Source: Desulfurobacterium sp.
Lineage (GTDB): Bacteria > Aquificota > Aquificia > Desulfurobacteriales > Desulfurobacteriaceae
NCBI GenBank assembly: GCA_026988135.1
Contig: JALSLT010000065.1
Location: 1 to 48,685 of the forward strand
DNA length: 48,685 nt
Direction of reading: 5' to 3'
The notes beneath the pieces are model-generated. The model was not told the DNA's origin. It was given only the letters and a program-made list of their open reading frames with translations, and ran no database searches. The position numbers and the translations under genes are program-made. This document shows, piece after piece, positions 7,689-13,665 of this stretch (position 1 is its first letter; each line of letters opens with the position of its first letter).

Positions 7689-8660
7689 ATGGTTATAGGT
7701 GTTATAGGTTCCGGGAGTTGGGGTTCGGCTCTTGCCGTTCATTTCGGAAAAAGTGGTTTTAAAGTTGTTCAATGGTGTAGGGAGAAAGAAGTTATTGAAG
7801 GGATAAACAGAGATAGAGAAAATCGGAAATATCTTTCCGGGATTCTTTATCCTGAGAGTGTAACAGTTGAGAATGATGAAAGAAGATTCTTTGATAAAGT
7901 GGAAGATGTGGTTTTTTCTGTAATTCCAACTCAGTTTGTCAGAGATTTCTGGCAAAATTGGAGAAACGAACTGAAAAGCAGACAGGTTATTTGTGCCAGT
8001 AAAGGGATAGAGATAGCATCGCTAAAACTTTTGTCTCAGGTTTATGAGGATGTTGTCGGCGGAGAGTATTTTGTTCTTTCAGGTCCTACGTTTGCCAGAG
8101 AAGTTGCTCTCGGAAAGCCTTCGGCTGCCGTATTGGCAGGTAAAGATAGAGATGAGGCTTTTAGGCTGGTTAATCTTTTAAGTGCAAAGATGTTTCGTCT
8201 TTACGCGTCAAGTGATGTTATAGGTGTTGAAACCGGGGGTGCAATGAAAAATGTTGTGGCGATTGCTACCGGCATATCTGACGGAATGGGATTGGGAAAT
8301 AATGCCAGAGCGGCTCTTATAACGAGAGGTCTTCATGAGATAAAAAAACTCGGTATGAAATTTGGTGCTGTTGATAAAACCTTTTATGGTCTTTCAGGTA
8401 TGGGAGATCTTATATTAACTTGCACAGGAGATTTGTCGAGGAACAGGCAGTTTGGGCTTTCTTTGGGAAAAGGGAGTGGAAAGGTGGATAAGAAATATGT
8501 TGTTGAAGGTGTTCATACTGCCAAAGCGGTTGTTGAACTTTCCCTAAAACTTGGTGTTGAGATGCCGATAGCAGAAGCTGTCTATTCCGTAGTTTATGAT
8601 GAAAAAGAGATTGAAAAGGTTATGATAGAACTTCTTTCAAGGCCGGTGAAAGAGGAATGA
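7689..8660 (+). CDS. gpsA: Glycerol-3-phosphate dehydrogenase [NAD(P)+]
   Basis: MVIGVIGSGSWGSALAVHFG...VICASKGIE...VLSGPTFAREVALGKPSA...NARAALITRGLHEIKKLG...GLSGMGDLILTCTGDLSRNRQFG. Confidence 0.96.
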   Translation: MVIGVIGSGSWGSALAVHFGKSGFKVVQWCREKEVIEGINRDRENRKYLSGILYPESVTVENDERRFFDKVEDVVFSVIPTQFVRDFWQNWRNELKSRQVICASKGIEIASLKLLSQVYEDVVGGEYFVLSGPTFAREVALGKPSAAVLAGKDRDEAFRLVNLLSAKMFRLYASSDVIGVETGGAMKNVVAIATGISDGMGLGNNARAALITRGLHEIKKLGMKFGAVDKTFYGLSGMGDLILTCTGDLSRNRQFGLSLGKGSGKVDKKYVVEGVHTAKAVVELSLKLGVEMPIAEAVYSVVYDEKEIEKVMIELLSRPVKEE

Positions 8661-10540
8661 ATAAAAGGACTATAACTATAGGGACTGCAGGACATATAGA
8701 TCATGGCAAAACTTCTCTTGTAAAAAGGTTAACGGGAATAGATACCGATAGGTTGAAAGAAGAAAAAGAGAGGGGTATGACTATAGAGCTTGGCTTTGCT
8801 CATATGGAGCTTGAGGACTGTTTAATAAGTATTGTTGATGTTCCCGGTCATGAGAAATTTATAAAAAACATGGTTGCCGGAGCTCATGGGATAGATGGTG
8901 TTCTTTTTGTAATAGCTGCGGATGAGGGAATTATGCCTCAGACACGAGAGCATCTTATCGTATGCGAGATGTTGGGGATATCTCGTGGAATTGTTATTCT
9001 TACCAAAGTGGATACTGTTGATGACGAGTGGCTTGAGCTTGTTGAAGAAGATTTAAAAGGGTATCTGGAAGGTTCCTTTCTTGAAAATGCGCCTATTGTA
9101 AAAGTTTCTTCAAAAACGGGAAAAGGTTTTGATGAACTTAAAAAAGAGCTGGTAGAGCTTCTAAAATCGGTTTCCGATAGAGATGAAAACTCATTTCCCC
9201 GATTACCTATTGATAGGGTTTTTTCCGTAAAGGGTTTCGGTACTGTCGTAACCGGAACTCTGACCGGTGGTAGTTTAAGGGTTGGAGATAGGCTAAGAGT
9301 GTATCCTTCTCTTAAAGTTGCGAAAGTAAAAAGTGTTCAAGTTGCTGGAAAAACGGTTCGGACTGCTTGTCCTGGTCAGAGGACAGCTTTGAATCTTGAT
9401 ATTTCCAAGGATTATGTTGAAAGGGGAAATATGCTTGCTCCCGAAGCTTTGCTAAAAGGTACGACATTGATAGATGTTGTCGTTAGATTTTCAGAAACTG
9501 CTCAGTCTTTTGAAAAGAGAAAAAGAATCCATTTTCACTATCTTACTCAGATGGTAGAAGGGGAAGTCGTTCTTATAGATAAAGAAATTGCAGGTGCCGG
9601 AGATTTGGTGAAAGCCCAGGTAATTCTTGACAAAGAAATTTTTCCTGTTTTCGGAGACCGATTTGTTTTAAGGAGTATATCTCCTTCATCGGTTATAGGA
9701 GGCGGGATAGTTCTTCATCCACTTGAGGAAAGACGTTTTCGAAAAAAATTCAAAAAAGAGTTTTCGGAAAAGATGGAGTTTATAAAACAAGGGAAAGTAG
9801 AGGCGTTGAAAGTTTTTGTAGAGGAGTTTGAACCTCTTCCGATAGATGCTCTTCCTCAGCTTTTGAATTTTTCTCTTTCCGGAGTTTCGGATTTTGTTTC
9901 CAGGATAGAAAAAGAGTCCGATATTATAAAAGTCGGGTTGTATCTTTACACGGCAGGAAAAGTAAAGAATGTTTTTGACGAAGCTTTAAAGGCGGTTTCT
10001 CTCTATCATGAAAGGTTTCCCGTGAAAAAAGGAATGAATAGGGAAACTCTCAAAAGTCTTCTCTCTGTTGACGATGCTCTTTTTGAAAATGTGATTTTAG
10101 ATTGCCCTCAGTTTGAAATAGATTCGGAATTTGTTAGAAAGAAGGGCTTTGTTCCTTTTCTTGATAAACGGTTTGAAAATTTCAAGGAAAAGATAGATGA
10201 GATTTTGCTGAAAAGCGGATTTGCTCCTCCTGCCGTTGAGAAGCTAAGAGAGAAAATAGGTATTTCGAAAGAAGAGTTTTATGCACTTTTGGAGTTTTTG
10301 AAAGATAACGGTTATAGGATGGCAGGAGAATTTCTTCTTTATCCTGATATATTTCTCAAAATTAAAGGGAAGGTTTTGAATTTTCTTAAAGATGGTGGTG
10401 TGATGTCAGTAACTGAATTCAAAGAGCTTTTCTCTCTTTCTCGGAAGTATGCTATTCCATTTCTTGAACTTCTTGACCGTGAGGGGATAACGGAGAGGAA
10501 AGAGAGTGGAATTAGAAAAATTAAATCCCGACATTCTTAA
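8657..10540 (+). CDS. selB: Selenocysteine-specific translation elongation factor SelB
   Basis: [66 protein letters not shown], then a C-terminal region consistent with SelB winged helices; ATG overlaps the gpsA stop. Confidence 0.92.
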
Positions 10541-10861: not shown

Positions 10862-11311
10862 ATGAGCATTAAAGAACAGTTAAAAAGCGATATGAAAGAT
10901 GCTATGAGAGCTAAGGATAAAATAAAACTTAGCACTATAAGAATGATAATGTCTCTTGTTAAAAATGCGGAGATAGAAAAGCGTGGTGAGCTTACCGATG
11001 AGGAGGTTGTTTCTCTTCTCCAAAAATATGCAAAGCAACGCAGAGAGTCTATAGAGATGTATGAAAAGGGCGGAAGACAAGACCTTGTGGATAAAGAAAA
11101 GTCGGAACTTCTTATAGTTGAATCTTATCTTCCTGAACAACTTGATGAAAATGAGATTAAAAATATAGTAAAATCTGTAATAGCGGAAGTTGGTGCATCT
11201 TCTGTTAGAGATATGGGCAAAGTTATGCAGGCTGTTATGCCAAAACTTAAAGGAAGGGCTGACGGTTCTATTGTGAATAGGGTTGTGAGAGAACTTCTTT
11301 CCGGAGAATGA
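10862..11311 (+). CDS. yqeY: GatB/YqeY domain protein
   Basis: SIKEQLKSDMKDAMRAKDKIKLSTIRMIMSLVKNAEIEKRG...; downstream of rpsU, a conserved neighbourhood. Confidence 0.9.
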   Translation: MSIKEQLKSDMKDAMRAKDKIKLSTIRMIMSLVKNAEIEKRGELTDEEVVSLLQKYAKQRRESIEMYEKGGRQDLVDKEKSELLIVESYLPEQLDENEIKNIVKSVIAEVGASSVRDMGKVMQAVMPKLKGRADGSIVNRVVRELLSGE

Positions 11312-11334
11312 AATATTATGGCTTATAATTGGGG

Positions 11335-11396
11335 CGCTCACACTCCTTTGGTGTATTGGAGGGGGTATTTATACTAATGTTCAAAGGAGTGTGGCG
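11335..11396 (+). promoter_or_regulatory. Inverted repeat enclosing the mutS2 SD and start codon (putative translational control hairpin)
   Basis: CACACTCCTTTG (11339-11350) and CAAAGGAGTGTG (11382-11393) are perfect reverse complements; CGC (11335-11337)/GCG (11394-11396) extend the stem past one bulged T. The 31-nt loop contains GGAGGGGG and ATG 11377. Confidence 0.6.
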
Positions 11397-13665
11397 TCAC
11401 CTTGGATTTGATACGGTTTTAGAAGAAACTTCAAAGATAGCAAAAAGCGAGTCAGGTGAGAAAGCTGTTCTTTCCATTCAACCTTTAGTTGATAGTAAAG
11501 AGATTTTTGAGAATGTACTTTTGACTTTTGATTTTTCAAGGCTTCTTTCCGAGAGATTTTTTCCCCTTGAGTCGTTTCCAAATATAACCGCAATTCTTGA
11601 AAAAGCGAAAGTTGACGGGACGGTATTTTCCGTTCGTGAAATTTTAGATATTAGGACTGTTGCCGTTCAGTCGAAAATTGTAAAAAAATTTTTAAATGAA
11701 ATTAAAGATAGATTTCCAAGAATTTCCGCTTTTTCCTCTTCTCTTTCTTCTTTTATGGAATTGAGAGAGCTTGTGGATTCTTCTGTTGATGAGGCAGGAG
11801 AGATTCTCGATACTGCTTCACCTAATCTTAAACTTATAAGAAGACAGAAGTTTACCATTGCCGATAAGATAAAGAAGCGTCTCGAATCACTTGTTAGAAG
11901 GAACGAGGATATATGCCCGGAACAGATAATTACTTTGAGAAACGGAAGATATGTTGTCTTGGCAAGAGCAGGTTACAAAAAAAGATTTCAGGGAATTGTT
12001 CATGATAAGTCTTCTACGGGACAGATGGTTTATGTGGAGCCGGCTTTTGTTGTTGAAGAGAACAACAGGTTAAGAGACTTTGAGATAGAAGAGCAGAAAG
12101 AGATAAAAAGAATTCTCTCGGAAATAAGTCGAAAAATAAGAGAGAATCGTTTCAGGCTTTCCGTTGCTTTCGAAACACTTACAGAGCTTGATAAAAGATA
12201 TGCGATGGGATACATGAGTTATAAGTTGGGAGGTGTTCTGCCGGATATTTCCTCCTATGTCGATATCAAGGATGCGAGACATCCTCTTCTTCTGTTGTCG
12301 GGGAAAAAAGTTGTTCCGGTCGATGTTAGACTGGACAAGGGTTTGGTTATTACAGGTCCGAATACAGGTGGAAAAACAGTTATTCTTAAAACTTTGGGTA
12401 TCTTTGTTTTAATGTTTCAGAGCGGATTTCTTATACCTGCTACCGAAGGGAGCAAGATTCGACTATTCAAAAACGTTATGGCGGATATAGGAGATGAACA
12501 AAGTATCGAGCAAAGTTTGAGTACTTTCAGTGCTCATGTGAAAAACATTTCAGAGATTCTCTCAAAGGCTGATAAAGATACTCTTATACTTCTTGATGAA
12601 CTTGGTGCCGGTACGGATCCTGTTGAAGGTGCAAGTTTGGGAGTTGCAATTCTGGAGTATCTGAAAGAGAAAGAAGCCGTTGCCGTTGTTACTACTCATT
12701 TTACGCCCATAAAACTTTATGCCTATAAAGAGCCTTTTTACGATGTTGCTTCCGTTCTTTTTGATGAAAAGAGCTTTAAGCCTCTCTACAGACTTGCTTA
12801 CGGTATTATAGGAAGGAGTTATGCTTTTGTTATAGCGAAGCGTTACGGCATGCCGGATAAAGTGATAGAAAAAGCGAAAAAGCTATTATCAACAGAGGAT
12901 AAAATTGCCGCTGATATTGTTGCATCTCTTGAAGACGAGTATAAATCCCTTCAGGATGAGAAGATTTCTGTTGAAAAATTAAAGGAGCAGCTGGAAAGAG
13001 AGAAAGAACTTATTAACAAAGAAATTAAAAGGCTGAGAGAGAAAGGAGTGGAAGAAATTCACTCCTATATAGCTGACTTTCGGGAAAAGAGTGAAAAACT
13101 TCTTTCCGATATTCATGATGAAAAGTTGAGGAACAGAGTAAGAGAGCTTGTGCATGAAGCCCGACAAAAGGTTGAAAATATTGAGAAAAGGCAGACTGTA
13201 TCCGTTAGAGAGTTGATTAAACCCGGGATGGTTGTAAGGCTCAAAGGAAGCGGTAGAAAAGGAACCGTGCTTGAGGTAGATAAGGAAAGAGGATGTACAA
13301 AAATAGGAATAGGTTCTTTGAAAATTGATGTGAAATTTTCTCAGATAGAATCGGTTGAGGCATTACCGGAAAAGATAGAGTCTTCTCTAAACGTAAATGT
13401 AAATGCGAAGATACCGGATAGGTTTTTTTCAGAGCTGAAACTTCTTGGTATGAGGGGAGACGAAGCCCTTGATGCTGTCGAAAAATATCTTGATGATGCG
13501 AGGCTTACAGGCTTTACTAGGGTTAAGATAGTTCACGGTCACGGAACAGGAATATTGAAAAGGCTTATAAGAGCTTATCTTAAAGAGTCCCCTTATGTAA
13601 AATCTTTTCGCCCTGGAAAGATAGAAGAAGGTGGGGACGGAGTAACTATCGTTGAGTTAAAATGA
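11377..13665 (+). CDS. mutS2: Endonuclease MutS2 with C-terminal Smr domain
   Basis: GPNTGGKTVILKTLGI Walker A, LLDELGAGTDPVEGASLG Walker B, STFSAHVKNISEIL, C-terminal Smr VKIVHGHGTGILKRLIRAYL. Confidence 0.95.
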   Translation: MFKGVWRHLGFDTVLEETSKIAKSESGEKAVLSIQPLVDSKEIFENVLLTFDFSRLLSERFFPLESFPNITAILEKAKVDGTVFSVREILDIRTVAVQSKIVKKFLNEIKDRFPRISAFSSSLSSFMELRELVDSSVDEAGEILDTASPNLKLIRRQKFTIADKIKKRLESLVRRNEDICPEQIITLRNGRYVVLARAGYKKRFQGIVHDKSSTGQMVYVEPAFVVEENNRLRDFEIEEQKEIKRILSEISRKIRENRFRLSVAFETLTELDKRYAMGYMSYKLGGVLPDISSYVDIKDARHPLLLLSGKKVVPVDVRLDKGLVITGPNTGGKTVILKTLGIFVLMFQSGFLIPATEGSKIRLFKNVMADIGDEQSIEQSLSTFSAHVKNISEILSKADKDTLILLDELGAGTDPVEGASLGVAILEYLKEKEAVAVVTTHFTPIKLYAYKEPFYDVASVLFDEKSFKPLYRLAYGIIGRSYAFVIAKRYGMPDKVIEKAKKLLSTEDKIAADIVASLEDEYKSLQDEKISVEKLKEQLEREKELINKEIKRLREKGVEEIHSYIADFREKSEKLLSDIHDEKLRNRVRELVHEARQKVENIEKRQTVSVRELIKPGMVVRLKGSGRKGTVLEVDKERGCTKIGIGSLKIDVKFSQIESVEALPEKIESSLNVNVNAKIPDRFFSELKLLGMRGDEALDAVEKYLDDARLTGFTRVKIVHGHGTGILKRLIRAYLKESPYVKSFRPGKIEEGGDGVTIVELK

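Follow-up and report, generated by a model that had tools for sequence, protein, structure and literature searches.

In RNA thermometers that sequester the Shine-Dalgarno (SD) sequence, an anti-SD-like strand is paired with the SD near the start codon, in a manner resembling the CUCCUUU-AAAGGAG pairing at the locus described here. The gene at whose start that pairing lies encodes MutS2, recently shown to split stalled ribosomes (PMC10897456). Searches of Rfam and of the literature (mutS2 with yqeY or riboswitch) turned up no mutS2 leader RNA, and a survey of Aquificales non-coding RNAs that includes D. thermolithotrophum and T. ammonificans names neither mutS nor yqeY in its main text; the RNA-seq described there was done on Aquifex, outside the family that bears the element (PMC4227106). 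A conserved RNA at the mutS2 start would give a handle on the tuning of ribosome rescue in thermophiles.

The locus lies in a 48,685-nt stretch (the window) of the 1.38-Mb draft genome of a Desulfurobacterium sp. (GCA_026988135.1, contig JALSLT010000065.1), where the local gene order is rpsU, yqeY, mutS2 and an inverted repeat spans the start of mutS2 (Table 1). The gene for the selenocysteine elongation factor (selB, 8657-10540) adjoins this group in the window's genus and lies elsewhere in other genera. We favor, at a probability of about 0.52, the reading that the repeat is part of an undescribed 5' leader RNA that mutS2 has in the Desulfurobacteriaceae alone, transcribed from a promoter of its own and bearing a loop that would be recognized by some factor.

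Table 1. Features of the yqeY-mutS2 junction, by position in the window
Feature	Position	Strand	Remarks
yqeY (YqeY/GatB-tail family)	10862..11311	+	Pfam PF09424, E 2e-56
TATAAT, putative -10 box; 3 nt separate it from the hairpin foot	11324..11329	+	
P1 left strand, GGCGC	11333..11337	+	covariation GGCGC/GCGCC, GGUAC/GUACC, GGUGC/GCACC, GGCAC/GUGCC
P2 left strand, CACACUCCUUUG, containing anti-SD-like CUCCUUU	11339..11350	+	
Loop of 31 nt; its conserved core is AUUGGAGGGGG, and its G-run falls in a small, tentative inner hairpin, UGGA/UUUA	11351..11381	+	
SD-like GGAGGGGG	11358..11365	+	kept even where no start codon comes after
mutS2 (MutS_V, MSSS and Smr domains)	11377..13665	+	Pfam PF00488, PF20297, PF01713
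mutS2 ATG start	11377..11379	+	ATG in 12 genomes, this one included; ACG in genus g7; TTCG in genome G011
P2 right strand, CAAAGGAGUGUG, here within mutS2 codons 2-6	11382..11393	+	
P1 right strand, GCGUC	11394..11398	+	

The inverted repeat and its predicted folding

The sequence-only reading from which this work started had described two perfectly complementary 12-nt arms, CACACTCCTTTG and CAAAGGAGTGTG, around a 31-nt loop that holds the SD-like sequence and the mutS2 ATG, with the right arm inside the first mutS2 codons, and all of this stands. The bulged T11338 and the CGC/GCG extension beyond it are likewise present, but the 3 bp allowed for that extension were an understatement, as five further pairs join GGCGC to GCGTC, for a stem of 17 bp. 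Folding of 11300-11420, proposed with that reading as a check, gives a minimum free energy of -36.1 kcal/mol, against -27.0 +/- 3.4 for shuffled sequences (z -2.7, with 3 of 200 shuffles equally good). A competing hairpin, CUCCUUUGG/UUGGAGGGG, the kind of alternative fold that a riboswitch would need, was rejected, its predicted energy at 75 C being near zero (-0.5 kcal/mol or weaker). The tentative inner hairpin UGGA/UUYA is predicted to be possible in all sequences, without compensatory support.

Might the hairpin open on heating? The pairing of CUCCUUU to AAAGGAG would suit an RNA thermometer, and reporter fusions at different temperatures had been suggested as a test. The 12-bp stem, however, has a predicted pairing of 0.96 at 75 C and 0.84 at 90 C, and at 75 C no family member is predicted to have an energy weaker than -9 kcal/mol. 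Because the stem is predicted to be closed at 75 C, a temperature switch is most unlikely.

No other perfect inverted repeat of 12 bp whose loop is at most 40 nt occurs in the window, where random sequence of that length would be expected to hold 0.2. A single sequence would therefore not settle whether this one is real or a chance palindrome, and the decision rests on its relatives.

Conservation among the Desulfurobacteriaceae

A covariance model built from 12 sequences was searched, under strict filters, against 136 genomes of the phylum in all. Of the 22 Desulfurobacteriaceae genomes, 18 yield one copy each, at E values from 1e-11 to 1e-18: that of the window and 17 of the 21 further family members located. 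Outside this family the model gives no match in the phylum. The four family genomes without the element also lack yqeY and the mutS2 N-terminus in their assemblies, so that these absences are best read as assembly gaps. No second genomic copy was found: a weak second match in G008 falls on the opposite strand of the same site, and beyond the site itself low-scoring own-genome matches are limited to its antisense and one at E 2.6. The pattern match L032 and one in Alphaproteobacteria, L072, both appear to fall within coding sequence and were set aside; a pattern scan of one genome per species, covering 84,980 species, matched only Desulfurobacteriaceae besides that chance match. With Rfam covariance models the element gave no score above the gathering threshold, whether in the window or at eight loci.

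The element always lies directly 3' of yqeY (18/18), and mutS2 is the next gene in 17 of these genomes. Junctions that keep the mutS2 codons and lose the left arm had been named beforehand as what would tell against that reading; the left arm is present at every assembled yqeY-mutS2 junction. Compensatory changes, for which an alignment of the junction had been proposed as a check, are found. In the model-fitted alignment 97.8% of cells are paired and 8 of the 20 pairs are changed on both sides. Cells changed on both sides number 20, against 5.9 in shuffles, none of 500 shuffles reaching that count; slid registers reduce pairing to 42-62%, and a MAFFT alignment made before model fitting gives the same picture, with both sides changed in 6 pairs. 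Departures from Watson-Crick pairing in P1 and P2 comprise 23 G-U cells, no A-C and 3 G-G, and this wobble, G-U and never A-C on the plus strand, points to a plus-strand RNA. Kept in 18 genomes with eight compensatory pairs, the inverted repeat is real, and the comparisons confirm it as an RNA structure, probably of the plus strand, conserved across the Desulfurobacteriaceae. That it is a chance palindrome, or a site acting at the DNA level, is scarcely tenable: both are refuted by the 18-genome conservation with compensation, the one-sided G-U wobble, the strict orientation and the synteny.

Is pairing all that is selected? Among the 12 genomes with the mutS2 ATG in the loop, synonymous differences amount to 4% in codons 2-5 versus 55% in codons 9-35, which indicates that nucleotides are held, and not amino acids alone; the constraint is confined to the right arm. 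The element appears to be a case of RNA structure dictating the first residues (MFKGV) of a protein. Pairwise identity between representatives is 0.65 in the outer stem, 0.95 in the inner stem and 0.94 in the loop core. With inner stem and loop core near-invariant beside the outer stem, part of the sequence is probably recognized beyond base pairing.

Start codons, the putative promoter and the copy without mutS2

The relation of the hairpin to the mutS2 start varies. The start lies within the loop in 12 genomes. In the four genomes of g7 an ACG occupies that loop position and the mutS2 ATG comes just past the hairpin foot, and in G011 about 70 nt separate the hairpin from an ATG that has its own SD-like sequence; the stem and the G-rich loop are kept in both. 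In G009 the order is yqeY, element, T-run and a convergent rpoD, with mutS2 elsewhere, behind a transposase fragment. The earlier claim thus survives as to a hairpin at the mutS2 start, but not as to trapping of the SD and ATG as a shared property, the ATG lying beyond the hairpin in five mutS2-linked genomes and mutS2 being gone from the site in G009. On these comparisons start-codon trapping is common among the copies, not a conserved core property of the element. The geometry in g7 and G011, together with the G009 copy without mutS2, implies that control of mutS2 initiation cannot be the only property conserved.

These arrangements bear on the view that a plain cis hairpin lowers or buffers mutS2 translation, or stabilizes the mRNA as a 5' hairpin, with no specific partner. 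The SD and ATG, or the SD, do lie within the stem-loop in 16 of the 17 mutS2-linked copies. Such a hairpin, however, leaves unexplained both the near-identity of loop and inner stem (0.94-0.95, versus 0.65 for the outer stem) and the retention of the element away from the start in G011, and we consider this view quite doubtful.

Other reading frames at the junction were considered. An alternative in-frame TTG start at 11329, an N-terminal extension offered by the ORF finder, is not conserved and, by hand reading, meets in-frame stops in relatives such as G005. A 19-codon ORF (11318-11377, MAYNWGAHTPLVYWRGYLY) overlaps the mutS2 start by TAATG and has an SD-like GGAG upstream, with similar peptides in g3 and g5; by hand reading it is set in another frame against the RNA motif in g2 and is missing from g7, and a conserved leader peptide was rejected. 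Other families of the phylum have MutS2 N-termini unlike MFKGV..LEF (loci L023-L027, in f3 and f4; e.g. MREKDLLKLEY), which would fit an RNA element that fixes the opening codons in the Desulfurobacteriaceae.

Fourteen of 18 genomes carry an exact TATAAT in the 45 nt upstream of P1, against 1.07 expected and 1 of 162 control windows, a count that overstates the number of separate events because the relatives are not independent. The seven genera agree all the same, with weaker matches in g2 and part of g4. The putative -35 is weak in the window's genus, and most other genera have TTGAAA or TTGCAA with a 15-17 nt spacer; in most genera it is placed in the end of yqeY. A consensus promoter scan of the window under a stricter rule found no promoter.

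The constant presence of yqeY upstream could instead mark the element as a terminator, or other 3'-end element, of the rpsU-yqeY operon, and in G009 T-runs do flank the hairpin on both sides, between the convergent yqeY and rpoD. G009 is, however, the sole exception to the absence of a T-run after the stem, the other 17 copies having none, and a promoter box stands between yqeY and the hairpin. For the window's genome the sequence-only reading had already judged the repeat not to be a simple terminator, and rightly, no T-run directly following the stem. A terminator is very unlikely.

The main rival is a stand-alone small RNA gene, acting in trans, e.g. on C-rich or anti-SD sequences, which the mutS2 start merely came to overlap. 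The G009 arrangement keeps this reading in play, as the copy there is a complete unit of putative promoter, hairpin and terminator-like T-run with no ORF after it (TTGCTC-16-TATAAT, 9 nt, the hairpin and TTTCTATTTTTTT, followed by convergent rpoD). Moreover, the loop is kept where it holds no start codon (g7, G011, G009). Against this, mutS2 comes next without a terminator in 17 of 18 genomes, and exact complements of the loop core, the element itself aside, number a few at most in any genome. The separation in G009 may also be recent, and its element a relic, since that genome is full of near-identical insertion sequence copies: about 40 of one transposase fragment, 94-100% identical, many of them at contig ends. 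At the G009 loci L074 (C2) and L076 (C23), one such fragment lies directly upstream of the relocated mutS2 and another beyond rpsU. The changes that the G009 stem shows relative to g7 all preserve pairing by hand comparison, whatever their age. On balance we regard a trans-acting small RNA as possible, though unlikely. Its fuller version, in which the SD-like loop and the SD/anti-SD-like stem would act in trans on the ribosome or on a factor linked to it, mutS2 having later recruited its first codons from the 3' arm, is doubtful.

How might a 5' leader of mutS2, the reading we prefer, work? Transcription would start on the plus strand from the element's own sigma-70-type promoter, and the RNA would form the 5' leader of the mutS2 mRNA. 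The near-invariant loop (AUUGGAGGGGG..GUUCAA) would be recognized by a protein, a ligand or an RNA. With the stem over the mutS2 ATG (12 genomes), or over the putative SD AAAGGAG (g7), initiation would be kept low unless the stem were opened, and the recognizing factor would thereby set the level of the ribosome-rescue protein MutS2. In G011, with some 70 nt between the hairpin end and the ATG, the element would have to act on transcription or on mRNA stability. Several observations weigh against such a leader: the stem does not stand in a constant relation to the start codon (g7, G011), the G009 copy is retained with no mutS2 behind it, a stem so long and fully paired is atypical of switches, and the -35 is weak in the window's genus.

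Comparison with known regulatory RNAs

The element recalls several known systems. A GGA in the hairpin loop is shared with CsrA targets. No csrA was found in any of the 25 genomes searched, by a search that was positive in E. coli, B. subtilis and T. maritima controls, and a CsrA-regulated leader was rejected on the absence of the gene from these genomes. Bacterial SECIS elements come to mind because every family genome searched encodes SelB and selB lies 0.8 kb upstream of the element here. A SECIS was rejected as having the wrong architecture: the element has no UGA in the required place, its loop is large, and in other genera selB is not nearby. Like ROSE and fourU thermometers, it pairs an anti-SD-like CUCCUUU with AAAGGAG close to the start; unlike them it is predicted to stay closed at 75-90 C, and most copies have the paired SD on the 3' side of the ATG.

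Autogenous ribosomal-protein leaders also place a hairpin over a translation start, and the neighbors here, rpsU and mutS2, are translation genes. The element differs in that it is not upstream of rpsU, has no Rfam match and has no established rRNA mimicry. With orphan riboswitch-like or protein-binding leaders it has in common a single-copy structured RNA with a conserved loop and compensatory changes, located between a putative promoter and one gene. It departs from them in its very long, near-perfect stem, in a right arm that is coding in 12 genomes, in its confinement to one bacterial family, and in having a ribosome-rescue gene as its putative target.
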